Below, piece by piece: positions 5,477-55,440 of a DNA stretch of 64,000 nucleotides (positions are counted from its first letter, which is position 1; each line of letters opens with the position of its first letter). Under the pieces are notes generated by a model that was given only the letters and a program-made list of their open reading frames with translations, ran no database searches and was not told the origin of the DNA. The DNA is from Amycolatopsis sp. 195334CR (GTDB lineage: Bacteria > Actinomycetota > Actinomycetes > Mycobacteriales > Pseudonocardiaceae): the NCBI RefSeq assembly GCF_017309385.1, contig NZ_JAFJMJ010000002.1, positions 62,001 to 126,000 of the forward strand, read 5' to 3'. A program made the position numbers and the translations under genes.

Positions 5477-6580
5477 TCAGGAAACATCTTCGCAGAAGAC
5501 GGTTTTGATGAGCGTGTCCAGCGCGGCGGGGAACACCCCGGCCGGGTCGGTGTCGCCGGTGGTCAGGGTGGCGGTCAGGGTCCTGGTGGCGTCGGGCGTG
5601 CTGATCATCAGTGCCCCGTAGCCCCCGGGAGCGCCGCCGTTGTGGTGGACGATGGTGCCGCCGTCACCCAGGTCCTGCACCCACAAACCCAGGCCGAGCC
5701 CGAACTTCCCGTGCGGCGTGCGCATTTCGGCCAGCAGCGGGGCGGGCAGGAGCTCTCCGCCCAGCAGCGCGGAGATGAAGGTGCTGAGGTCCTCGGCGGT
5801 CGAGATCAGGTCACCGGCACCGGCCAGCAGGGACGGGTTCTGGCGGCTGACGTCGACCACCTTCGACTCCCCGCCGTCCTCGTACCGGTAGTAACCGCGG
5901 GCGTGCGGCCCGGGCAGGTCCGGCGAGGTGGCCGAAACCACGGTGCCCGACAGGCCGAGCGGCCCCAGGATCCGCTGCTGCGCCTGTTCGGCGTAGGACT
6001 GGCCGGTGAGCTTCTCGATCAGCAGCAGGGCCAGGGTGTAGTTGGTGTTGGAGTAGCTCTGATCCGTTCCCGGCTCGAACCGCGCCGGCTTGGCCAGCGC
6101 GAACCGCACCAGTTCCTCGGGCCGGTAGGTGTGGAACCGGTTGTCCACCCACTCCCGGCCCATCGACGGCAGCCCCATTTCGAAGGTTCCGTCGGGGCCG
6201 AGTTCGCCGGTGTAGTTGTACAGCCCGCTGGTGTGCCGCAGCAGCATCCGCACGGTGATCCGGGCGTCCAGCCCGAGTTCGGGCAGGTGGTCGGCCACCG
6301 GGGTGTCCAGCCCGATCCGGCCCTCCGCCACCAGTTGCAGCACCAGGGTCGCGGTGAAGGTCTTGGCGACGCTGCCCGCCCAGGCCTGCCCACCGGCCGG
6401 CGGCGGGGTGGTCCCGCCCAGTTCGGCGACCCCGGCTCGGCCGGTCCAGTCGCCGTGCTCGTCGTGCACGCGCAGTTCCATCGCGGCGAAACCGGCGTCG
6501 ACGAACGCCTGCACGGCCTGCTGCAACTCGGGCCGGTCCTGCCCGGTGGCGACCGGTGCGGGTGTGGCGATCTTCTGCAT
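5477..6580 (-). CDS. Serine hydrolase, beta-lactamase/DD-peptidase fold
   Basis: A 367-residue member of the class C beta-lactamase/D-Ala-D-Ala carboxypeptidase/esterase family. SVAK at 70-73 supplies the SxxK nucleophile, YSN at 176-178 the second catalytic element, and HHNGG at 312-316 the KTG-equivalent. I start at ATG 6580 because CAGGAG lies ideally upstream; the longer frame has no ribosome site. No signal peptide is visible from this start, so unlike classical penicillin-binding proteins it may be intracellular and act as an esterase or amidase. It is followed downstream by the hairpin at 5434-5465. Substrate unknown. Confidence 0.88.
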   Translation of the reverse strand: MQKIATPAPVATGQDRPELQQAVQAFVDAGFAAMELRVHDEHGDWTGRAGVAELGGTTPPPAGGQAWAGSVAKTFTATLVLQLVAEGRIGLDTPVADHLPELGLDARITVRMLLRHTSGLYNYTGELGPDGTFEMGLPSMGREWVDNRFHTYRPEELVRFALAKPARFEPGTDQSYSNTNYTLALLLIEKLTGQSYAEQAQQRILGPLGLSGTVVSATSPDLPGPHARGYYRYEDGGESKVVDVSRQNPSLLAGAGDLISTAEDLSTFISALLGGELLPAPLLAEMRTPHGKFGLGLGLWVQDLGDGGTIVHHNGGAPGGYGALMISTPDATRTLTATLTTGDTDPAGVFPAALDTLIKTVFCEDVS

Positions 6581-6691
6581 CTTGCTCTCCTGGGGTTTCG
6601 GTGTCTCGGAGTGGTTGATGACCACGATCGCCCGCACTCCTGACACCGGACCGCCACCGGCCTGACACGACCCCGCCACCGAACGCGGTGG

Positions 6692-7588
6692 TCAGCACTT
6701 CATCTGGTCCGGGATCGGGGCGGCGGGGTCGAAGTATTCGAAGGAAGCGTTCGCCGCGTCGGCGGTTCCCGGCGTCCGGCCGCTGTAGGCAGGCGCCAGC
6801 CGGCCCCGTACCGCCTGCGAGCAGGCGCTGAAGTGGAAGAACCCCTGGCCGCGCACGGCGTCGATGCCGCGGTTGCCGGCGCCCCAGGTGCGGCCGTCGC
6901 GGTAGAGGAACTCGTTGTCCATGCGGACGGCGGAGACCGTGTCGATCGGCTGGGTGGCCCGGCGGGGGTCGTCGACGTCGAAGGCGTACGCGTACACCAT
7001 GTTGGTCCGGATGAGCAGTTCGCCCTTCTGGGCGCCGGGTTCGGCCCAGATCGTGCCGGTGATCTTCGGCCCGCCGGGCAGGAGGCGGAACTCGGGGGCG
7101 ATCTTGGTGGCGTAGGACGGCATGGCCGCCGGGTTGTCCCGCAGCTGGTTCCGCAGCACGTCACGCAGGTTGGTGCTGAGCGTGGCGTAGACGGGTTCCA
7201 TCTCGTCCCCGGTCAGCACCGCGCGGTTCACCCGCGAGGCGACGAGGTATTCCTTCACCTTGCCCAGGGCCGTGCCCACCTGCTCGGCCGTGAAACCGCC
7301 GATCGCTTCCGGCTCCGGCAGGTCGATGCCTGCCTCGCCCTCGGCCCAGTCGTGCGCCGGGGTGCCGAGGTAGGGCCGGGCCTTGTCCTGCGACCAGGTC
7401 GGCGGGGCGGGGGCGGCCCGGTCGGCCGCGGCCTTCGGCTCGGGGTCGACCGGCGTGAGGTAGATGGCCAGGCCCACCGCGGCGGTCATCAGCAACGCCG
7501 CCAGCAGCACGATCAAGCCCGTCTGGCCCGGCGGTCTCGGCGGGTCGTTGTCCGGCAAGGTGTTCTCGCCGTACTGCGCACTCTGCAT
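6692..7588 (-). CDS. Membrane-anchored extracytoplasmic protein, unknown function
   Basis: A protein of about 298 residues with a short Gly/Pro-rich cytoplasmic tail, one transmembrane helix at about 24-44, a Pro/Ala linker, and a ~240-residue Ala-rich soluble domain ending in PIPDQMKC. I recognise no catalytic motif; conserved-looking stretches include WAEPGAQKGELLIRTN and the two late cysteines. ATG 7588 is preferred because AGGGGG precedes it; an in-frame GTG at 7648 adds 20 residues but has no ribosome site. The gene is divergent from the molybdenum hydroxylase and shares with it a region carrying two identical-core palindromes. Confidence 0.75.
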   Translation of the reverse strand: MQSAQYGENTLPDNDPPRPPGQTGLIVLLAALLMTAAVGLAIYLTPVDPEPKAAADRAAPAPPTWSQDKARPYLGTPAHDWAEGEAGIDLPEPEAIGGFTAEQVGTALGKVKEYLVASRVNRAVLTGDEMEPVYATLSTNLRDVLRNQLRDNPAAMPSYATKIAPEFRLLPGGPKITGTIWAEPGAQKGELLIRTNMVYAYAFDVDDPRRATQPIDTVSAVRMDNEFLYRDGRTWGAGNRGIDAVRGQGFFHFSACSQAVRGRLAPAYSGRTPGTADAANASFEYFDPAAPIPDQMKC

Positions 7589-46822: not shown

Positions 46823-47695
46823 ATGTGGAAAAGGCCAAAACTCTGTGCTTTTCTCGAACAGAACGCACACCGGAACAAACCCCGACAGGACTGGTGGATC
46901 GTTTTGTCCGAATATCACTGGATACCCCACGGCCGGGAAATCGACGGGCTGAGATCCTCGATCAGCGGTATTCGCGCGGAGGTCACCGGCCACCGGATCT
47001 ACCGCCTGCTGCGCGACCGCACCGACGTGACCACCTTCATGGCGCACCACGTCTTCGCGGTCTGGGACTTCATGTCACTGCTCAAAGCCCTGCAGGGCAG
47101 GCTGACCTGCGTGCGCGTGCCGTGGATCCCCCGCGACGCACCGCTGAGCGCGCGGCTGATCAACGAAATCGTGCTGGTCGAAGAAAGTGACGCGGTCGAA
47201 TCCGGGTTCACCAGCCATTTCGAGCTGTACCGCCAGTCGATGGCGGCGGCCGGGGCGGACACCGCGCCGATCGACGAGTTCCTCGGTCTGCTGCGCAGCG
47301 GCATCCCGGTCCCGCGGGCCTTGGTCACCGCGGGTGTGCCGGACGCCGCCGCGGAGTTCGTGCGCACCACCTGGTCGCTGATCAGCGAGGGCACCGTGCA
47401 CCAGCAGGCGGCGGCCTTCGCCTTCGGCCGCGAGGACCTCGTCCCGGCGATGTTCGCCCAGGTCGCCGCCGAGGAGGAGCGGCTGGCGCTGTTCCGCCTC
47501 TACCTCGAACGCCACGTCGGCGCCGACGGGGAGCGACACGGCCCGACGGCCCTGCACATGCTCACCGAGCTGTGCGGTGCCGACGAGCTGAAGTGGCGGG
47601 AATGCCTCGACACCGTGCACGAGGTGCTGCGGGCGAGGCTGGCCCTGTGGGACGGCATCTGCGCGGCGCTCGACCGGCGCCTCGCACCCACCTGA
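46823..47695 (+). CDS. DUF3050 heme-oxygenase-like fold protein
   Basis: An all-helical DUF3050 protein (290 residues from ATG 46823; about 263 from the TTG at 46904, which has a GGTGG site and better matches the family N-terminus). [19 protein letters not shown] (~73-91) is the family hallmark. With late acidic and His residues ([14 protein letters not shown] and [13 protein letters not shown]) it forms a candidate di-iron site in a heme-oxygenase-like bundle. The function is not established. It is not linked to an obvious pathway. A strong hairpin follows its stop. Confidence 0.82.
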
Positions 47696-47700
47696 TCGAC

Positions 47701-47731
47701 GGGTGCGCGGGGCCGCCGACCCCGCGCACCC
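47701..47731. terminator. Perfect 12-bp hairpin, bidirectional terminator
   Basis: GGGTGCGCGGGG (47701-47712) and CCCCGCGCACCC (47720-47731) pair perfectly with a 7-nt loop. They lie between the convergent DUF3050 gene and the acyl-CoA-synthetase-like gene. Confidence 0.8.
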
Positions 47732-47768
47732 GGAAAGGCCGTTCACCCGAAGGTGGGAACGCCCTGCG

Positions 47769-49343
47769 TCAGGTCCACCGTCCGGTGCCCGGGGTCTCGG
47801 CGCAGCCGGTGAGCATGGTCAGCAACGCGAGCCGCCGGACCTGCCCGGTGCCGGTGCGCGGGATCTCCTCCCAGGTCAGCACGCGCGGCGGCTGGAGCTC
47901 GGGCAGGTCGTGCACCGCGCCGGTCCACTCCGCCGCGTCGACGCGGCCGGTCTCGGTGACCACCACCGGCAGCGGGTCCTTGCCGGGCATGGCCAGCACC
48001 AGGCATTCGAGCACGCCGGGCAGCCGGTCCTCCAGCACGTCCTCCAACTCCAGGCAGCTCAGCCCGGGCGTGGTGTCCACCTCGCGGTCGAGCAGCAGCA
48101 CCCGGCCGTCGCGCCGGTGCACCGCGAGGTCGCCGGTGTTCCACCAGCCGGCGTCGTGCTTCTCCTGCCAGCGCTGGTTTTCCCCGACGTAACCGAGGCA
48201 GCGCGCGGGCGTCCGGGTGAGCGCCAGCCCGGCCCGCCCGCGCGGCAACGGTTCGAAGGTGCCCGGATCGACCACCTTCAGCCGGGTGCGGAGCGGGATC
48301 GCCCGGCCGAGGTCGCGGGTGGCCGGTTGCCGTTCGCGGCGCACGGCCAGCGATTTCCGGGTGAGGAAGCGGACGGTGATCGGCCCGGTCTCGGTCTGCC
48401 CCCAACCCTGGATCCACAGTGGACGACGCCGCCGGGAGGCGTGCAGGTAGTCCCGGACCACCGGCGGGTGCATCGCGTCGTAGGTGCTCAGGAACACCCG
48501 CACGTCGCGGAACGGATTGTCCAAACGGGACAGCAACGGCCGGAACCGGGCGAACGCGGCGGGCAGTGCCTCGACGAAGGTCGGCGGATACCGGCGGAGC
48601 AGCACGTCCGCGGCGTCGGGGTGCTGTCCGGACAGGATCACGATCCGGGCCGGGGCGCGGCAGAACACGCCGGCCGTCCAGCAGAAGGTGCGGCCGTGCG
48701 CGTAGGAACTGGCGTTGGCGACCGTGTCGTCGCGGCGGATGCCGACCGCGGGCAGCCGGACGGCTTCCAACCCGGCGAGCTTGCGGACGATCGTCGAGGT
48801 CGAGTGCACCACGAGCTTCGGCAGCCCGGTGGTGCCCGAGGTGTGGTTGATCACCAGTGGCGCGTGCTCGTCCGGGCGGCGTGGTGGCGGCGGGCGGTGC
48901 CCGCGCACCCGGTCGACGTGGATCGCGCCGGGTTCCGGAGTGTCCAAAGTGATCACCCGGGAGGCGAAGGCCACGCCGAGCGCGGCGTGCTCGGCGGTGG
49001 TCACCAGCACCGCGGGCTTCAACCGCCGCAGCAGTTCCGCCAGCCATTCGGGTGGCAGGTGCGCGGAAAGCTGCGCCGGGACCGCGCCGAGCCGGATCGC
49101 CGCGCAGGCGATCAGGTCGTAGTCCCAGTGGTTCGGCTTGAGCACCGCGACCCGGTCACCGGCCCGGGTGCCCGCCGCGGCCAGCCAGCCCGACACTTCG
49201 GCCACCAGCGCGGCGAGTTCTCCCGCGCCGTAGTCGATCCCGCCGTCCGGCGCGATGTCGAAAGGACGGTCGAGCCGTACGCGGGTGGCGTAGCCCCGAT
49301 CGGCGCACTCGTCGAACAGCACGCCCATGTCGTACGGCCTCAT
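47769..49343 (-). CDS. Acyl-CoA-synthetase-like protein with altered A10 motif
   Basis: A 524-residue member of the adenylate-forming (ANL) family, the third gene of the minus-strand operon. HTSGTTGLPK at 167-176 is the P-loop-like A3 motif, GWGQTE (~324) the A5 motif, and GWWNTGDL (~406) A7. At the C-terminus the catalytic A10 lysine, normally in RTGxGKxxR, is a glutamine: RTGTGQVRR with Gln501. Loss of this Lys usually destroys adenylation, so it may do only the thioester half reaction, bind acyl-adenylate, or work with altered chemistry. It overlaps the flavin oxidoreductase by 4 nt (ATGA). Confidence 0.87.
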   Translation of the reverse strand: MRPYDMGVLFDECADRGYATRVRLDRPFDIAPDGGIDYGAGELAALVAEVSGWLAAAGTRAGDRVAVLKPNHWDYDLIACAAIRLGAVPAQLSAHLPPEWLAELLRRLKPAVLVTTAEHAALGVAFASRVITLDTPEPGAIHVDRVRGHRPPPPRRPDEHAPLVINHTSGTTGLPKLVVHSTSTIVRKLAGLEAVRLPAVGIRRDDTVANASSYAHGRTFCWTAGVFCRAPARIVILSGQHPDAADVLLRRYPPTFVEALPAAFARFRPLLSRLDNPFRDVRVFLSTYDAMHPPVVRDYLHASRRRRPLWIQGWGQTETGPITVRFLTRKSLAVRRERQPATRDLGRAIPLRTRLKVVDPGTFEPLPRGRAGLALTRTPARCLGYVGENQRWQEKHDAGWWNTGDLAVHRRDGRVLLLDREVDTTPGLSCLELEDVLEDRLPGVLECLVLAMPGKDPLPVVVTETGRVDAAEWTGAVHDLPELQPPRVLTWEEIPRTGTGQVRRLALLTMLTGCAETPGTGRWT

Positions 49344-50662
49344 ACCGTCTCCTTCACGCCGGCGCGGCAGTGGTGCAGCACCCTCGACGCGGCCAGCGCC
49401 CCGGCGCGGATCGCGCCTTCGCTGCTGGGGTGCAAGGAGATCCAGTCACCCGCGTAGTCGACCGGGCCGACCGGCCGCGCCTCGAAACCGGCACGCAGGG
49501 CCAGTGCCGCCGGGGTCGCCTCGGGCAGGCCGTGGCGGAACCGGTGGATCAGGGGTTCGCCGGTGGCCACGCCCAGGCCGGGCAGGAACCGTTCGCCGGC
49601 CCCGAGCAGGCGCGGCACGATATCGCCCTCCGGAGCATCGATCAGTTCGGCGGCCACTGGGGGAGCGGCGTGCAGGCTCACCAGGCCGCGTCCGTCCGGT
49701 GCCCGGGATCCGTGCCTCTCGTGGTCCACGACGACGCCGGACAACACGGATTCCTCGGCGGCCGGGGTGAGCAACGCGTGCAGCGGGCGGTTCGCCTTCA
49801 GCGCGAGCGGCCGGTCCAGCAGGCAACTGAGCTTGAGCATCGGGGTGAACGAGCACGCGGCGAGGTACGGTTCGGCGGCCGGATCGGGGTTGGCGTGCAG
49901 TGCCGCCGCGACGGGCGCGGGTACGCACAGCACCGCCGCCCGCGCGTGGAAGGTGCCTGCCGCGGTGGTCACCCTGGCGTGGGAGCCGTCGGCGACCACC
50001 TCGTCCACCGGATGATCCGTTTCGACGTCCAGTTGGGCGGCCAGGTGTCGCGCGAGGGTGTCCATGCCGTCGGTGCAGGTGCGCCACGTCGTAGACATGC
50101 CAGCTGAACCGGTCGCCAGCAGCAGGCAGGCCATCGGGGCGATAGCGGAGTTTTCCGGCCGCCAGCCGAAGAAGTGCGCGCCGAGTGGCTGCGCCAGGTA
50201 GTCGTGCAGATCGCGGTGGAGACGCTCGGTGAACTCGGTGACCGTGGCCGAACCGAGCGGTGTCCCTTCTGGACGGTCCGTGTCGTAGTCACGTCTTTGT
50301 CTTCTGGCGCGCAGGAGCAACCGCGTCAGTTGCCAGCGCGCGCGGAGCGACAGCGCGGAGAGGGCGGGCTGGGCACGGCCGTCGCGCCAGATGCCCGTCG
50401 AACTCCGGATCGCGGGAACGTCCGCGATCGGCAAACCCGTGCGGCGCAGGAGTTCCCAGGTGGCGCGGTAACCCTCGGTGGAGATCTGCTCGGTGCCGGT
50501 GTCGATGGTGTAGCCCTGGTGGCGGATGGTCGCCATCCGCCCGCCGACCTGCCCGGACGCCTCGAACACCCGGACCGAGAGCCCGGCCCGCCGCAGTTCG
50601 TGCGCCACGGTCAGCCCGGCGATGCCCGCGCCCACCACCGCCACGTCCGGCGTGCCGCTCAC
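49340..50662 (-). CDS. FAD-dependent amine-oxidase/protoporphyrinogen-oxidase-like enzyme
   Basis: 440 residues. The FAD dinucleotide-binding motif AVVGAGIAGLTVAHEL (~8-23) is followed by FEASGQVGGRMAT (~33-45), which is the GG motif of the amine oxidase/CrtI family. GTEQISTEGY and a late HRFRHGLPEATP segment are family-like, and a DWISLHPSSEGAIRAG tail closes the flavin domain. This group includes desaturases and amine and protoporphyrinogen oxidases; substrate unknown. GTG start 50662 overlaps the UbiA-like stop by 4 nt (GTGA) and its own stop overlaps the synthetase ATG, so the three are translated in a chain. Confidence 0.85.
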   Translation of the reverse strand: MSGTPDVAVVGAGIAGLTVAHELRRAGLSVRVFEASGQVGGRMATIRHQGYTIDTGTEQISTEGYRATWELLRRTGLPIADVPAIRSSTGIWRDGRAQPALSALSLRARWQLTRLLLRARRQRRDYDTDRPEGTPLGSATVTEFTERLHRDLHDYLAQPLGAHFFGWRPENSAIAPMACLLLATGSAGMSTTWRTCTDGMDTLARHLAAQLDVETDHPVDEVVADGSHARVTTAAGTFHARAAVLCVPAPVAAALHANPDPAAEPYLAACSFTPMLKLSCLLDRPLALKANRPLHALLTPAAEESVLSGVVVDHERHGSRAPDGRGLVSLHAAPPVAAELIDAPEGDIVPRLLGAGERFLPGLGVATGEPLIHRFRHGLPEATPAALALRAGFEARPVGPVDYAGDWISLHPSSEGAIRAGALAASRVLHHCRAGVKETV

Positions 50663-51474
50663 CCGAGCGCCAGCACGAGCAGGTTCGACAACACCATGAG
50701 CAGCGCGGAAAGCCGGTGCGCGCGCAAGCCCAGTGCTCGCGCGGTCTCGAGGTCGCCCGTCCGGAAGCGGTGGTACTGCAGGGCGCGCAACGCGGTCGCC
50801 GGTGCCATCGCCACCACGAACCACCACGGCGCGGCACCGAGCAGCGAGCCGATCGCGCCGGCCAGGAACTCCGCCGGGGCGAGCACCGCGACGAGCCGCG
50901 TGTTCGGTGAACCCGTGGCGTAACCGCGGGCCAGCAGGGTGCCGAGGCCGAAGACCACCGCCTGCACCACGACGAACGGGTGCAGCGTGCCGGTGGCCAG
51001 CGCGTAGGGCGCCAGCACCACCACGCCGCCGAGCACGGCGACCAACGGCTCCGGGAGCCCGGGTTCGACCACGGCGGGGGTGGCGGTCAGTGCGATCAGC
51101 ACGATCGTCCACACTGGACTGAACGGGCTGATCAGGACGGCCGTGGTCCACAGCAGCACGCCCGCGAACGCCGCACCCCAGCCGAACCACCGCACCTCCG
51201 ACGAGGTCAGCGCGAAGGGCGGCCGGTGCTCGCCGGGGTCGTGGCCGAAGGAGGCCAGCAGGCAGCTCCCACCGGCGGTGAAGCACAGCAGCATGGCGAA
51301 AACGCTGACGCTGAACTGCGCCGTCGTGCCCAGGAGCGCGGTGAACACCACGAACGGGCTCAGGTAAGTGGCGAAGGTGCCGAGCCTCGCGAGCCGGAGG
51401 CAACTGCGGACCTTGCTCTCGCGGATCGGTTCCGCCCGCCATTGGGCGAGCAGCCGGTCCTGGCTCCTGGTCAT
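50659..51474 (-). CDS. UbiA-superfamily-like membrane protein with degenerate aspartate motifs
   Basis: A 271-residue protein of ~8 hydrophobic segments with the helix spacing of UbiA prenyltransferases. The position of the first Asp-rich motif reads ASFGHDPGEHRPPFALTS, with a single Asp rather than NDxxDxxxD. The second motif position is GYATGSPNTRLVAVLAP, with no Asp. Mg-diphosphate binding as in normal UbiA enzymes is therefore doubtful; another lipid role or altered prenyl binding is possible. It heads the minus-strand operon, reading away from the 296-bp shared control region. Confidence 0.55.
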   Translation of the reverse strand: MTRSQDRLLAQWRAEPIRESKVRSCLRLARLGTFATYLSPFVVFTALLGTTAQFSVSVFAMLLCFTAGGSCLLASFGHDPGEHRPPFALTSSEVRWFGWGAAFAGVLLWTTAVLISPFSPVWTIVLIALTATPAVVEPGLPEPLVAVLGGVVVLAPYALATGTLHPFVVVQAVVFGLGTLLARGYATGSPNTRLVAVLAPAEFLAGAIGSLLGAAPWWFVVAMAPATALRALQYHRFRTGDLETARALGLRAHRLSALLMVLSNLLVLALG

Positions 51475-51770
51475 CGTGTCCCCCGGGCGGCCGCGGTATT
51501 CGGATTGCGCCGATCGAGCGACATTCCGGCCGGCCGGGTTCTTCTGGAAAAGTGCAGCTCGGCAAGGGTTTCCGCCCGATCGTCGACCATCACGCTCCGC
51601 TGCACTGTCACGTACCGAAAGTAGCTGAGCGGCTTGGTGGCGAAAAGGGAGGAATGGTAACCGGGCCGGTTTTCACTCTTTGCGGTCAGTTTTCCACCAC
51701 GGTTCTCGACGGTGGAGGGAGCCGCGGCGGATATTACGACGGACAGCCTTCCCCGAACGAGACGAGAATC
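51475..51770. promoter_or_regulatory. Shared divergent control region of the two operons
   Basis: 296 bp with no convincing gene, between the UbiA-like and Gfo/Idh start codons. It is AT-richer in patches (GAAAAGGGAGGAATGGTAAC, GGTTTTCACTCTTTGCGG) than its surroundings, consistent with promoters in both directions. The clear inverted-repeat operators seen elsewhere in this window are absent. Confidence 0.5.
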
Positions 51771-52775
51771 ATGCTGCAAACGCTGGTGCTCGGGCTGGGC
51801 CGGGCCGGCGCCGCGCGGCACCTCCCGGCGCTCACCCGGATCACCGAAGCCGGGTTGCCGGGAGTGTTCGCCGATCACCCGATCGTTGCCCACGACCCCC
51901 GGCCGGTGGAACTGCCGCACCTGCCCCGGGTCCGGGTCACCGGTGACCTCGGCGAGGCGATGGCGCTGGTGGACCCCGGATCGGCGGTCGCTCACCTGTG
52001 CACCCCGCCGGGTTCGCGGCTCACCCTGCTGGAAGAACTGGTGCGCAACGGGTTCCGCCGGTTCGTGGTGGAGAAACCGCTCGGTGCCGGGCGCCGCGAG
52101 CTCGACCGGATCGGCGTGGTGCGCCGCCGGTACGGCCTGGAGATCGCGGTGGTGGCGCCGTGGCTGGCGGCCGGGCTCACCGAACGGCTGGCGAAACTGG
52201 CGCGTTCCGGCGAGTTCGGCGCGCTGCGCCTGGTGACGGTGAACCAGCACCAGCCCCGGTTCCACCGCTCGCTCACCACTTCGGAGCACACGAACGCGTG
52301 CGAGGTCGAGCTGCCGGACGCGGTGCCGGTGGCGCTGCGGCTGGCCGGGCCCGCCGAGCTGGTCGACGCGGAGTGGTCCGACATGACCTGCGGCGAGCGG
52401 GAGATCCCGCGGCTCGGCGGCGCTTCGCTGACCCTGCGGCACGACGGCGGGGTGCTGACCAGGCTGCGGTCGGACCTGACCTCGCCGATCCACGAGCGCA
52501 GCATCTCGCTCAGCCTCGACCACGGCATCGTCACCGGGCACTACCCGCTCAGCGCCGAGGACGACCACGCGCAGCTGGAAGTGGTGTCGCCGCACCGGAG
52601 CGACCGGGAGGTGTTCCGCGACGACGCGCTGACCGCGTTCTTCCTGCGCACCTACCGGGCTTTCCGCGCCGGGAAGCCGGTGGGGATCGACCTGCACGAA
52701 CGGGCCGCGCGGTTGCTGATCGAGGCGAAGGAGCGGTGCGCGCGACGCGGGCTGGTGGCGTCGCATGCGCCGTGA
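51771..52775 (+). CDS. Gfo/Idh/MocA-family oxidoreductase
   Basis: 334 residues. The N-terminal Rossmann domain starts TLVLGLGRAGAARHLPAL, and the signature lysine segment VEKPLGAGRREL (~102) is the EKP motif typical of the family. The C-terminal domain is an alpha/beta dimerisation and substrate domain. Members oxidise or reduce sugars, inositols, cyclitols and related polyols with NAD(P). ATG 51771 has a GACGAG site; the upstream frame lacks one. It overlaps the TIM-barrel gene by 11 nt, opening the plus-strand operon. Confidence 0.82.
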   Translation: MLQTLVLGLGRAGAARHLPALTRITEAGLPGVFADHPIVAHDPRPVELPHLPRVRVTGDLGEAMALVDPGSAVAHLCTPPGSRLTLLEELVRNGFRRFVVEKPLGAGRRELDRIGVVRRRYGLEIAVVAPWLAAGLTERLAKLARSGEFGALRLVTVNQHQPRFHRSLTTSEHTNACEVELPDAVPVALRLAGPAELVDAEWSDMTCGEREIPRLGGASLTLRHDGGVLTRLRSDLTSPIHERSISLSLDHGIVTGHYPLSAEDDHAQLEVVSPHRSDREVFRDDALTAFFLRTYRAFRAGKPVGIDLHERAARLLIEAKERCARRGLVASHAP

Positions 52776-53601
52776 ACTGTCGTTCGCCGGGATCGGCGAC
52801 GAGGCGGGCGCGAGACTCCAGGCCCAGGTCACCGCGATCCGGCGGCTGGGCTGGCGGCAGCTGGAGCTGCGCAGCGTGGACGGCCGGGCGATCGCCGACC
52901 TGGGCCTGGACGGGCTCCGGCGGGTCGAGAAGGCGATCCGCGACGCCGGGGTGGAGGTGGTCTGCCTCGACTCGCGGATCGGCAACTGGGCGCGGCCGAT
53001 CACCGTGCCGTTCGCCCGTGAACTGTACGAACTCGACGAGCTGATCGACTGGTGCCTGGCGCTGGACACCCGGTTCATCCGGATCATGTCCTACCCGAAC
53101 ACCGAACTGCCCGAGGGCGAGTGGCGCGCCAGGGTGCTCGACCGGGTGCGGCGGCTGGCCGAGCGCGCCGCCGAGGTGGATGTGGTGCTGCTGCACGAGA
53201 ACTGCTCCGGCTGGGCCGGGGCCGATGCCGAACGCGCCCTCGAACTGGTCACCACCGTCGGCAACCTGCGGCTGCTGTACAACACGGGCAACGGCGTCGT
53301 GCACGGGTACTCGGGGCACGATCTGCTCGCGGAGGTCGTGGACCACGTCGAGCACGTGCACGTCAAGGACGCGGTGGTGGTCGACGGGGTGGCGCGGTTC
53401 TGCCTGCCCGGGCAGGGCGAGGCGCGGGTGGCCGACTCGCTGCGGTTGCTGCTGGCGCACGGGTACCGGGGCGCGTTCTCGCTCGAACCGCAGCTGAACG
53501 TGGTGCCACGGCAGGGAAAGGTGGTCGGCGACACGGCGGCCGACGCGTTCGTCTCGGCCGGGCGGGCGCTGGAACGGCTGGGCGTGGAGATCCCGCGGTG
53601 A
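52765..53601 (+). CDS. TIM-barrel sugar-phosphate isomerase/epimerase-type protein
   Basis: 278 residues of the xylose-isomerase-like/AP-endonuclease-2 TIM-barrel superfamily. LRSVDGR and VEVVCLDSRI begin early barrel strands. HENCSGW (~136-142), LLYNTGNG (~170) and HVHVKDAVV (~195) supply the metal-binding Glu/Asn/His set of this superfamily, and LEPQ (~236) a later Glu. Members isomerise or epimerise keto-sugars, inososes or hydroxypyruvate-type substrates. It overlaps both neighbours, 11 nt upstream and 4 nt downstream (GTGA), which argues for a stoichiometric pathway with the dehydrogenase before it. Confidence 0.82.
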   Translation: MRRELSFAGIGDEAGARLQAQVTAIRRLGWRQLELRSVDGRAIADLGLDGLRRVEKAIRDAGVEVVCLDSRIGNWARPITVPFARELYELDELIDWCLALDTRFIRIMSYPNTELPEGEWRARVLDRVRRLAERAAEVDVVLLHENCSGWAGADAERALELVTTVGNLRLLYNTGNGVVHGYSGHDLLAEVVDHVEHVHVKDAVVVDGVARFCLPGQGEARVADSLRLLLAHGYRGAFSLEPQLNVVPRQGKVVGDTAADAFVSAGRALERLGVEIPR

Positions 53602-54311
53602 GCGGGTTGCTGCTCGCTTCCGACCACGACCTGCTGCTGCGGCTGCTGCGCACACCGACGACCAGCCCGCTCGAAGCCGGCGGGCCCACGCAGTTGTGGC
53701 AGGCGCAGACCGCCTACGCGGAGGCGGCGCGGGCCGTCGGCTTCCGGACGGCCCGGCACGACTGCGCGCGGCCGGCGGACGTGCTGCGCGACGATGTGCC
53801 CGCCGTCGTCCGTGCCGCGGCGGGGACGCCCGGCTTTCTGGCCGGGCAGCCGAGTTTGGTGCTGCGACTGGGGCGGGCGCTGCCGTTCGGCGCGACGATC
53901 ATGGTCAACGTCCACCTGGACACGGCTGCCGGGCCGGAGCCGGTGGCGTTCGACGGCAGCCGGTTCACCGGGCGGGGCGCGGTCGACGCGAAGGGGCCGG
54001 CAGTGGCGTTGCTGGCCGGGGTGCGCCAGGCGCTCCAGCTGAGCCCGGCGGTCGGGCGGGACGTCGGGGTGGTGCTGCAGGTGGTGCCCGGTGCGGGCGG
54101 GGGTGCGCTGGGCCGGATCGGGACGCGGCGCCTGATCGACGCGGGATTTCACGGGAGGCTCAACGTTTTCTGCGCGCCCACCGGACTCCGTTACGTGACC
54201 AGCGCACCGGCCGAGATGACCGCCCGCGTCCGCGCGGACGCCGAGCACGACGCCTCGGTGTTGCTGGGATTCCTGGCGCAGCACTTCGCGGCGGCGCTCG
54301 GTGCCGCGTGA
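53598..54311 (+). CDS. N-terminal half of a split, M20-peptidase-like protein
   Basis: A 237-residue protein like the N-terminal catalytic domain of the M20 metallopeptidase/deacylase family. VNVHLDT (~104-110) contains the metal His and Asp; GRGAVDAKGPAVALL (~125-139) matches the GRGAxDxKG element, with Asp130. The catalytic Glu-Glu element expected after VVLQ is replaced by VPGAGGGALG (~163-172). Without it, hydrolysis is doubtful; a binding or carrier role is possible. GTG start inside the TIM-barrel stop and GTGA overlap with the C-terminal half. Confidence 0.7.
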   Translation: MSGLLLASDHDLLLRLLRTPTTSPLEAGGPTQLWQAQTAYAEAARAVGFRTARHDCARPADVLRDDVPAVVRAAAGTPGFLAGQPSLVLRLGRALPFGATIMVNVHLDTAAGPEPVAFDGSRFTGRGAVDAKGPAVALLAGVRQALQLSPAVGRDVGVVLQVVPGAGGGALGRIGTRRLIDAGFHGRLNVFCAPTGLRYVTSAPAEMTARVRADAEHDASVLLGFLAQHFAAALGAA

Positions 54312-54766
54312 CCGGCCTGCGCACCGACCCGGACGGCGGTGGTGAGTTCCTGCTGACCCTGACGTACTCGTCGGCCGCGGAAGGCGCGGAGCTGGCGGGC
54401 GAGGTCGAACGCCTGTTCCGCGCGGGGCAGGATTCCTTCGGCGCCAAGTTCGGGCGCACGAACCCTGCCGAGAGCACGGACCTGGACTGGCCCAAGCGCG
54501 GCCTTCCCTGCCTCAACGGCGGTGACCGGTGGGCGGAGAACCTGCTGACCACGCACGCCGGCCTGACCTCGCAGCCCACCGCCCCCTGCTGCGACGCCAT
54601 CTGGATGGACGGGGTGCCCGGCGCCTTCACCGCGGTGCTGGGGCCGGGCACTCCCCGTACCCGCGGCGAGTACGTGGACCTCGCCGACCTGGACGCCTTC
54701 GCGGGAGCGGTCTCGCGCATCGTGCTTGCCTTCGCCCGGGTGCGGGCTCCCGCCCGGCGCGCCTGA
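54308..54766 (+). CDS. C-terminal half of the split M20-peptidase-like protein
   Basis: 152 residues starting with GTG inside the preceding stop (GTGA). YSSAAEGAELAGEVERL reads like the lid domain of M20 enzymes. The second half has CCDAIWMDGVPGAFTAVLGPG, EYVDLADLDAF and IVLAFARV, the C-terminal ligand-and-fold elements of that family, including the DA position. Together with the previous ORF it reconstitutes about 389 residues, normal for M20. The separate ORFs with intact overlap and clean codon use suggest a real two-subunit protein and not a sequencing error, although an in-frame fusion cannot be excluded. Confidence 0.65.
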   Translation: MTGLRTDPDGGGEFLLTLTYSSAAEGAELAGEVERLFRAGQDSFGAKFGRTNPAESTDLDWPKRGLPCLNGGDRWAENLLTTHAGLTSQPTAPCCDAIWMDGVPGAFTAVLGPGTPRTRGEYVDLADLDAFAGAVSRIVLAFARVRAPARRA

Positions 54767-54775
54767 GGCGGTCGC

Positions 54776-55303
54776 TCAGCCCAGTAGCGGGAGGTCCAGC
54801 CTGCCGAAGTGGAAGTCGCGGACGGCGGCGAGGAGTTCCGCGGTGGAGAGCAGGCCGTCTCCCGAGGAGTCGATCCGGGCGAAGGCGGTGCGTGCCTCCT
54901 CCTGCTCTACGCCGAGGGCGCCCAGCCAGATGGCGAACTCGTCACCGTCGATGTGGCCGTCGTGGTTGTCGTCGCACATGCCGATCACGCCGTCGACGAC
55001 GGGGCCCATCACGCGGTTGAAGGCGGCCTCGCCCTCCTCGAAGATGAGGCGCTCGGTCACCACGCGGAACTGCTCCCGCGTAAGCGAGTCACGCGCCCCT
55101 GCCTGGGAGGTGAGGTAGTCGAACAATCCGGTGAACGCGGCCATCAACGCCCTGGTCTCCGGTGACGCCTCGCCCTTGGCGAACGCCTCGGCGATCAGGT
55201 GCGCCTCTTCCCGGAAGTCGGCGAGTTCGAGGGCGCCGTCCCCGTTGGTGTCCCACTTCTCGAAACGCTGGGTGAGCCGATCCTGCGCGACAGCGGTCGT
55301 CAT
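54776..55303 (-). CDS. EF-hand calcium-binding protein (calerythrin/calsymin type)
   Basis: A 175-residue soluble four-EF-hand-like protein. Canonical calcium loops lie at 18-29 (DTNGDGALELAD), 111-122 (DDNHDGHIDGDE) and 145-156 (DSSGDGLLSTAE). A fourth, degenerate hand lies around 60-80, as in calerythrin. It probably acts as a calcium buffer or sensor in the cytoplasm. It is convergent with the M20-like operon, with only 9 nt between them. A hairpin lies upstream of its start. Confidence 0.93.
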   Translation of the reverse strand: MTTAVAQDRLTQRFEKWDTNGDGALELADFREEAHLIAEAFAKGEASPETRALMAAFTGLFDYLTSQAGARDSLTREQFRVVTERLIFEEGEAAFNRVMGPVVDGVIGMCDDNHDGHIDGDEFAIWLGALGVEQEEARTAFARIDSSGDGLLSTAELLAAVRDFHFGRLDLPLLG

Positions 55304-55343
55304 GGAAGCGTAACGTAGCAGCGACTCAGGGTGACGGTAAGAG

Positions 55344-55362
55344 GGTGAGCGGAAGGCTCACC
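55344..55362 (-). terminator. Hairpin between ARH and EF-hand genes
   Basis: GGTGAGC (55344-55350) and GCTCACC (55356-55362) form a 7-bp stem with a 5-nt loop in the 137-bp gap. It may terminate the upstream ADP-ribosylglycohydrolase transcript. Confidence 0.45.
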
Positions 55363-55440
55363 GGTGGGGTGAAGGACGGCATGCCCCGGTCACGGTGGGT
55401 TCGCTCGGCGGCGAGCGGATTCACCGGCGCGGAGGCAGCT

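Follow-up and report, generated by a model that had tools for sequence, protein, structure and literature searches.

The locus considered here lies in a 64,000-nucleotide stretch of DNA from Amycolatopsis sp. 195334CR (the window; all coordinates are positions within it), and it raises the question of whether two divergent and tightly coupled groups of genes constitute a complete biosynthetic pathway or what is left of one. One group encodes an acyl-CoA-synthetase-like AMP-ligase (ACS), an FAD-dependent oxidoreductase (FAD) and a UbiA-like membrane protein. The other encodes a Gfo/Idh-like oxidoreductase (Gfo1), a xylose-isomerase-like TIM barrel (TIM) and an M20-like protein in N- and C-terminal pieces (M20a and M20b). 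An initial annotation had proposed that these seven open reading frames form an undescribed pathway. We favour a different reading, to which we give a probability of roughly 0.7: the locus is probably not a complete pathway but a reduced and altered, yet still maintained, derivative of a biosynthetic cluster conserved among actinobacteria.

The conserved cluster and its calerythrin gene

A search of 80 genomes of the genus with the Gfo1 protein found matches (E ≤ 0.001) in 27, one of them the genome of the window. Of the others, 20 match strongly (E of 1e-68 or better), and 18-19 kb around each of these matches was compared. The gene order in 18 of the 20 loci is MTa < ACS < FAD < UbiA < (MTb) < AT1 < AT2 <> Gfo1 > TIM > M20 > Ldh2 > Gfo2 > DUF6917, where MTa and MTb are methyltransferases, AT1 and AT2 are DegT aminotransferases, and the arrowheads give gene direction. 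Each of the 18 clusters has at least 14 genes and is closed, on the opposite strand after DUF6917, by EF < UDPDH, an EF-hand gene and a UDP-sugar dehydrogenase gene. MTb is present in 14 of them, and UbiA is broken in two in one (L063). The two exceptions among the 20 loci are L048, which is reduced like the window, and L054, which has decayed independently.

The genes therefore form one conserved unit, and the check on co-occurrence that accompanied the initial annotation comes out in its favour, since neighbours are kept together in the same order in 18 of 20 Amycolatopsis relatives. A literature search, which covered titles and abstract openings and, for the longer listings, part of the entries, found no description or name of this cluster. 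What does not survive of the proposed candidate pathway is its extent, as its seven genes make up only part of a larger cluster. The genes missing from the window belong to the DegT aminotransferase, Ldh_2, Gfo/Idh, DUF6917, UDP-sugar dehydrogenase and methyltransferase families, and ACS, FAD, Gfo and TIM are 78-89% identical between the window and its two nearest intact relatives.

The intact cluster was found in genomes of Amycolatopsis, Saccharopolyspora and Crossiella. A Streptomyces locus (L019) carries MTa, UDPDH, AT1, AT2, Gfo1, TIM, M20, Ldh2, Gfo2 and DUF6917, with no ACS, FAD, UbiA or EF within the stretch compared. Outward of MTa, one locus (L145) has a CoA-transferase III gene and a second AMP-ligase gene, and another (L143) has an AMP-ligase gene. 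A search with the M20 protein returned at least 763 database proteins at E ≤ 1e-20. With the TIM barrel as query, 396 genomes of the phylum gave four matches, including the window's own, and the other three are only 34-37% identical. Two proteins of this cluster, P0060 (M20) and P0210 (DUF6917), bear the name of the alphaproteobacterium Parasphingorhabdus pacifica, which might reflect a mislabelled genome or transfer between phyla.

An eighth gene of the unit, EF, lies on the minus strand, 9 nucleotides from the end of M20b, and is present in 20 of the 20 fetched Amycolatopsis loci. Its product matches the calerythrin structure 1nya over residues 2-175 of 175, and the gene is a calerythrin orthologue whose product is predicted to bind Ca2+. 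To place this gene relative to the cluster, 200 genomes of the family were screened with protein queries, at E ≤ 1e-30 for calerythrin (found in 46) and at E ≤ 1e-15 for DUF6917 (found in 45). On the assumption that the same 200 genomes were drawn, 41 have both, five have calerythrin alone (one being the window's own genome), four have DUF6917 alone, and 150 have neither, although a Fisher value for this overlap is not a fair probability because the genomes are related. By position, 38 of 42 calerythrin loci lie within 16 kb of a DUF6917 gene (33 within 3 kb), and the other four lie on different contigs from it. This count excludes the second copies in genomes G687 and G714 and, where a genome has two DUF6917 genes, pairs one with each locus. 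Among 20 chosen loci from 19 genomes of other genera, cluster genes adjoin calerythrin in 19, and none was seen in L137.

Two clusters (L123 and L124) occur in G693, an S. erythraea-type genome, and a separate calerythrin goes with each of them; the second cluster was traced only to TIM. The two calerythrins of this genome are 61% and 52% identical to the query from L051, and the gene order of L124 is rearranged.

The PF21891 profile for DUF6917 matched none of 396 genomes of the phylum and none of 14 controls, and the distribution given above was therefore taken from the protein query in the family. A database search returned 779 DUF6917 proteins (E ≤ 1e-8). In the top 120, every protein that bears a species name is actinobacterial, except for one under the label Parasphingorhabdus pacifica, which taxonomy places in the Alphaproteobacteria. 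A structure model of DUF6917 (pLDDT 72) had no convincing match in the PDB. The near-invariant sequence DACHFPNHYN in its alignment suggests a metal site or an enzyme.

Genes, motifs and residues lost from the reduced pair

The second reduced locus, L048, belongs to genome G246, by inference that of A. sp. YIM 10; the window's genome is G000. In a tree, the window and L048 are separated from L049 onward with 100% support. Both loci lack MTa, AT1, AT2, Ldh2, Gfo2, DUF6917 and UDPDH, and both occupy the same chromosomal site as the intact clusters L049 and L050, flanked on one side by genes for an esterase, a tannase-like protein and an RNase H and on the other by an ADP-ribosylglycohydrolase gene. 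A DUF3050 gene also lies on the esterase side of this site but was not seen beside L050.

The deletion of UDPDH joined positions corresponding to about 15161 and about 16831 of L049, in the window and L048 alike, and the DNA alignment of the two reduced loci is continuous over both the MTa gap and the aminotransferase gap. Because the junction is common and the alignment continuous, the losses of UDPDH, the aminotransferases and MTa predate the split between the window and L048. At the third gap (Ldh2-Gfo2-DUF6917), L048 has, between M20 and EF, a low-complexity spacer of about 780 base pairs (bp) with no counterpart in the window. Although the endpoints differ, one ancestral event each is likely for this gap and for the loss of the first UbiA Asp motif described below. 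The spacer (L048 positions 5996-6774, reversed relative to the window) consists of short CCCAGCGG-like repeats. It shares short matches with the repeat-rich Ldh2-Gfo2 spacer of L049, and such repeats may have helped the deletions.

Relocation of the missing genes was considered and rejected for those searched genome-wide (AT1, AT2, Ldh2, DUF6917 and full-length UbiA), none of which has an orthologue in G000 or G246; Gfo2, UDPDH and MTa were compared at the locus. Neither genome has DUF6917 or a UbiA of this kind beyond the gutted copy. The best matches by score in G000 and G246 are 38% and 36% identical for AT1 (others reach 42%), 42% and 43% for AT2, and 37% and 33% for Ldh2. Similar distant paralogues occur in the intact genomes, between which true orthologues are 68-80% identical, or 77-91% for DUF6917. 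In the independently decayed L054 (genome G265), ACS, AT2, TIM and DUF6917 are fragmented, FAD, Gfo1 and calerythrin are full length, and UbiA and M20 were not found at the locus.

The genes that remain have also changed, most severely UbiA. UbiA prenyltransferases carry two Asp-rich motifs that bind Mg-diphosphate. Both are deleted from the window protein, near nucleotides 51246/51247 and 50919/50920, and a third conserved loop is trimmed, all in frame. Five Asp residues tested are deleted in the window and L048; among the intact loci, three of these sites are kept in 18 of 18 and two in 17 of 18 (the broken L063 being the exception). At columns invariant among the 17 unbroken intact copies, with L063 left out, 49 of 100 are changed in the window and 48 of 100 in L048. 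The deletion of the second motif (54 nucleotides) and that in the loop (21 nucleotides) are common to both reduced loci, and the first motif was removed with different endpoints in the pair (33 + 39 versus 120 nucleotides). A 257-residue UbiA-like protein of A. lurida (P0003) is gutted in the same way. No Pfam family matches the window protein at E ≤ 0.1, although its full-length relatives do carry PF01040. A structure model, for which UbiA relatives supplied the alignment, is a helical bundle (pLDDT 79) whose best PDB matches are UbiA enzymes (TM about 0.5; lowest E 7.5e-3). Without the Asp-rich motifs, attachment of a prenyl chain at this locus is unlikely.

The M20-like pair, described at first as split, does consist of two reading frames joined by GTGA, but it is one frameshifted gene without a metal site. 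A 7-nucleotide deletion splits it, and the C-terminal half restarts at the overlapping GTGA. The same span is a single open frame in 19 Amycolatopsis loci and in the Streptomyces locus L019, and a genuine two-subunit protein was rejected on this ground. A one-base sequencing slip was rejected in view of the length of the deletion and the substituted active-site residues. M20 metallopeptidases are expected to have a set of metal ligands and an EE pair. In the window, GEEGG has become GAGGG (nucleotides 54093-54098), CEPTG has become CAPTG, and the distal metal His is altered; HLD, the bridging D and the GHN-type H are retained. The change of EE to AG is seen in the window only. Invariant columns are changed at 34 of 152 positions in the window and 28 of 152 in L048. 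M20a has a weak Pfam match (E 0.0036, below the cut-off) and M20b has none. The earlier suggestion that this protein is a binder or a deacylase survives in its first half, as a binding role would fit the lost metal ligands better than deacylase activity.

Single residues are altered in three of the other enzymes, with catalytic roles assigned from their families. Acyl-CoA synthetases and AMP-ligases rely on a P-loop and a C-terminal catalytic Lys. The window ACS keeps the P-loop Thr, but the Lys of its GTGK motif is Gln at residue 501 (nucleotides 47841-47843), a position occupied by Lys in L048 and in 18 of 18 intact loci. Gfo/Idh/MocA oxidoreductases share an EKP Lys and a conserved His. Gfo1 keeps the Lys, but its His 183 is Asp in the window (nucleotides 52317-52319) and His in L048; its Pfam scan gave nothing above the cut-off and at most a chance-level match.

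Xylose-isomerase-like TIM barrels bind metal through four ligands, E, D, H and E. Three of these remain, the Asp having become Asn at residue 173 (nucleotides 53281-53283) in the window and L048, and all four of the changed invariant columns (of 75) in each locus are common to both. Because they are common to the pair, this substitution and the deletion of the second Asp motif of UbiA also predate the split. A profile search of the PDB with the TIM barrel, empty at E 1e-9, gave matches at 0.01 to UlaE, D-tagatose 3-epimerases and IolI, and the ligands align with those of D-tagatose 3-epimerase. In the FAD enzyme, the one residue tested (the dinucleotide-fold Gly) is intact, and 5 of 114 invariant columns are changed.

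Constraint after the losses and the readings it allows

Selection was estimated by maximum likelihood under a four-taxon codon model in which the window and L048 are the reduced branches. Omega on these branches is 0.073 for ACS, 0.108 for FAD, 0.136 for Gfo, 0.089 for TIM, 0.103 for M20a, 0.138 for M20b and 0.082 for EF. For all seven genes, a separate omega gives little improvement over a single one (2dlnL ≤ 3.84, the borderline value being that of EF, toward lower omega), and omega = 1 is rejected (2dlnL 66-233). Pairwise NG86 omega between the window and L048 (ACS 0.18, FAD 0.20, Gfo 0.30, TIM 0.21, M20a 0.27, M20b 0.32, EF 0.17) resembles that between the intact L049 and L050 (0.20, 0.30, 0.24, 0.27, 0.24, 0.28 and 0.36, respectively). 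Neutral simulations of the same composition (60 runs per gene) gave mean NG86 omega of 1.48-1.57, versus the observed 0.18-0.30 for ACS, FAD, Gfo and TIM. These four genes are free of stops in both lineages, for which the simulated neutral chances are 0.067, 0.167, 0.367 and 0.35, respectively, with a product of about 0.0014. Of the 13 indels between the window and L048 (in nucleotides: UbiA 48, 3, 3; M20 9, 9, 7, 9, 3, 9, 15, 6; FAD 9; EF 6), 12 are multiples of three (P = 1.7e-5). Reading frames and most of the sequence have been kept, and active sites have not.

Several observations weigh against maintenance. UbiA is relaxed on the reduced branches (omega 0.37 versus 0.17, 2dlnL 7.5), and its NG86 omega is 0.86, versus 0.31 between L049 and L050. 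Omega is low for M20 although M20 is broken in the window, and omega alone is therefore no proof of maintenance. The two reduced loci show 26 and 28 changes at invariant columns of ACS, FAD, Gfo, TIM and EF, versus 4 and 2 in L049 and L050 (189 and 217 versus 88 and 24 per unit path length), which slow decay would also fit. Path length accounts for part of this excess, as intact loci on long branches also have many such changes (36 in L053, branch 0.39; 20 in L056). In addition, the absence of Gfo2, UDPDH and MTa is known at the locus, the DNA of just two reduced loci was compared, any function of theirs is predicted from sequence, and the chemistry of the parent cluster rests on family similarity.

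For UbiA by itself, relaxation invites the doubtful but not negligible explanation that the frame is kept as a conduit for translation, with re-initiation of FAD at the coupled GTGA needing an open frame upstream. The stop codon of UbiA runs into the start of FAD in the window and L048 alike, by a GTGA at the same place, omega is raised, and the deletions are all in frame. However, omega = 1 is still rejected for UbiA (2dlnL 21), the model keeps its helical bundle, and the explanation is inapplicable to M20, which is last in its operon and also has in-frame indels save the one of 7 nucleotides.

A broader alternative, which we consider unlikely while giving it real weight, is plain decay, in which deletions inactivated the cluster and the rest drifts toward pseudogenes, low omega being a lag or a by-product of constraint on expression. 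It would account for the M20 frameshift and lost metal residues, the relaxed UbiA, the ACS Lys and Gfo His altered in the window only, and the excess of changes at invariant columns, and L054 offers the example of an independently decayed copy. Against it stand the absence of stops from ACS, FAD, Gfo and TIM in either lineage, the in-frame bias of the indels, and the fact that several losses precede the split, yet later omega equals that of intact clusters. Maintenance with altered function is preferred because the losses came before the split and the constraint is seen after it.

Under maintenance, the remnant would no longer make the parent product, and its proteins would be kept for a simpler job, namely oxidation by the FAD enzyme, with the UbiA-, M20- and TIM-like proteins serving in binding or regulation without catalytic activity. 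A more specific version, which we regard as distinctly improbable, would have the cluster turned into a pseudoenzyme module after the loss of its sugar-making half, with these three retained as folded, non-catalytic lipid- and sugar-binding parts of a sensing or transport device that, together with a live FAD enzyme and calerythrin, recognises the cluster product that neighbouring actinomycetes still make. The complete seven-gene pathway of the initial annotation, in which a polyol or sugar is oxidised, isomerised and joined to a prenyl or acyl chain, is very improbable and is rejected despite its tight coupling, shared divergent region and conserved synteny, given the larger cluster in relatives and the altered key residues of UbiA, M20, TIM, ACS and Gfo. 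The window and L048 hold a cluster without its core, in which most remaining genes are under normal constraint and frames are mostly kept while active sites are eroded. The pair offers a natural test of whether enzymes can persist in binding or regulatory roles once their pathway is gone.

Layout of the locus and comparison with known systems

The seven reading frames, their overlaps and the divergent gap were re-derived as first annotated (Table 1). UbiA and FAD overlap by GTGA, and FAD and ACS by ATGA; on the plus strand, Gfo1 and TIM overlap by 11 nucleotides, and TIM and M20a as well as M20a and M20b by GTGA. Pfam names ACS, FAD and TIM clearly. In the divergent region, which is where the two aminotransferase genes are missing, about 200 bp on the Gfo side align with the stretch between AT2 and Gfo in intact clusters, and a scan for promoters found no sigma-70-type site. 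Positions 51600-51770 form a block common to reduced and intact loci with a palindrome-like ACCGG/CCGGT core, a candidate regulator site. A DUF3050 (haem-oxygenase-like) gene at 46823-47695 is convergent with ACS. A gene of this kind also occurs close to the cluster in L142 (on its left flank) and in L053 (on the opposite side) and is a possible occasional partner.

Table 1. Features of the reduced locus in the window
Feature	Position	Strand	Basis
AMP-binding acyl-CoA-synthetase-like protein (ACS)	47769..49343	-	PF00501, E 3.6e-46
FAD-dependent oxidoreductase, amine-oxidase fold (FAD)	49340..50662	-	PF01593, E 2.7e-37
UbiA-like membrane protein	50659..51474	-	Alignment with full-length relatives
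Divergent region, 296 bp	51475..51770		Alignment with L048, L049 and L050
Gfo/Idh-like oxidoreductase (Gfo1)	51771..52775	+	Name kept from initial annotation, without profile support
Xylose-isomerase-like TIM barrel	52765..53601	+	PF01261, E 4.9e-23
M20-like, N-terminal piece (M20a)	53598..54311	+	7-nucleotide deletion closes the frame
M20-like, C-terminal piece (M20b)	54308..54766	+	Restart at overlapping GTGA
Calerythrin orthologue (EF)	54776..55303	-	PDB 1nya, E 1.7e-63
Scar of the UDPDH deletion	55304..55440		Junction identical in L048
Site of the missing MTa	47696..47768		Comparison with intact relatives

Ebo/Edb operons combine a UbiA-like gene and a xylose-isomerase-like TIM barrel with TatD-, dehydroquinate-synthase- and phosphatase-like partners. 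The pairing of the first two genes is shared with the present cluster and had prompted the comparison in the initial annotation. However, the TatD, dehydroquinate-synthase and alkaline-phosphatase-like families are absent among the 8 + 10 + 3 cluster proteins scanned with Pfam (no genome-wide search was made), and membership in this group was rejected.

The lost half of the cluster resembles WbpA-WbpB-WbpE, the type of pathway that makes UDP-2,3-diamino-sugars. Its dehydrogenase matches the nucleotide-sugar dehydrogenase profile TIGR03026 (E 9.9e-119), Gfo2 matches UDP-GlcNAc 3-dehydrogenase (NF040723, E 3e-16), and the DegT enzymes match WbpE and QdtB among solved structures. It differs in that Gfo2 scores higher with an oxidoreductase subfamily and with inositol dehydrogenase and has mixed PDB matches, that the top PDB match of both aminotransferases is 2oga, named just 'Transaminase', and that the cluster has additional UbiA, FAD, AMP-ligase, M20 and DUF6917 genes. 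We tentatively suggest, at less than even odds, that in the parent pathway a UDP-sugar would be oxidised, oxidised at position 3 by Gfo2 and transaminated in the WbpA/B/E manner, and that the aminated sugar would pass through further redox or isomerisation steps by Gfo1, TIM, M20 and Ldh2. A prenyl and/or acyl group might then be attached via UbiA, the FAD enzyme and the AMP-ligases, and calerythrin might serve the pathway as its own calcium-dependent partner.

The closest known relative is the intact calerythrin-linked cluster itself. The window has the same genes in the same order and strand, at the chromosomal site of its two nearest relatives, but lacks AT1, AT2, Ldh2, Gfo2, DUF6917, UDPDH and MTa and has degenerate UbiA and M20.

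Calerythrin of Saccharopolyspora erythraea has been called the first true bacterial EF-hand protein and is treated as a buffer, or putative buffer, of Ca2+ (PMC10574481, PMC4053335), and the parts of the literature covered gave no tie to any gene cluster. The window protein matches it over its full length, and S. erythraea-type loci carry the gene beside the same cluster. The regular place of calerythrin in one biosynthetic cluster, doubled together with the second cluster copy in an S. erythraea-type genome, gives this protein a testable pathway.

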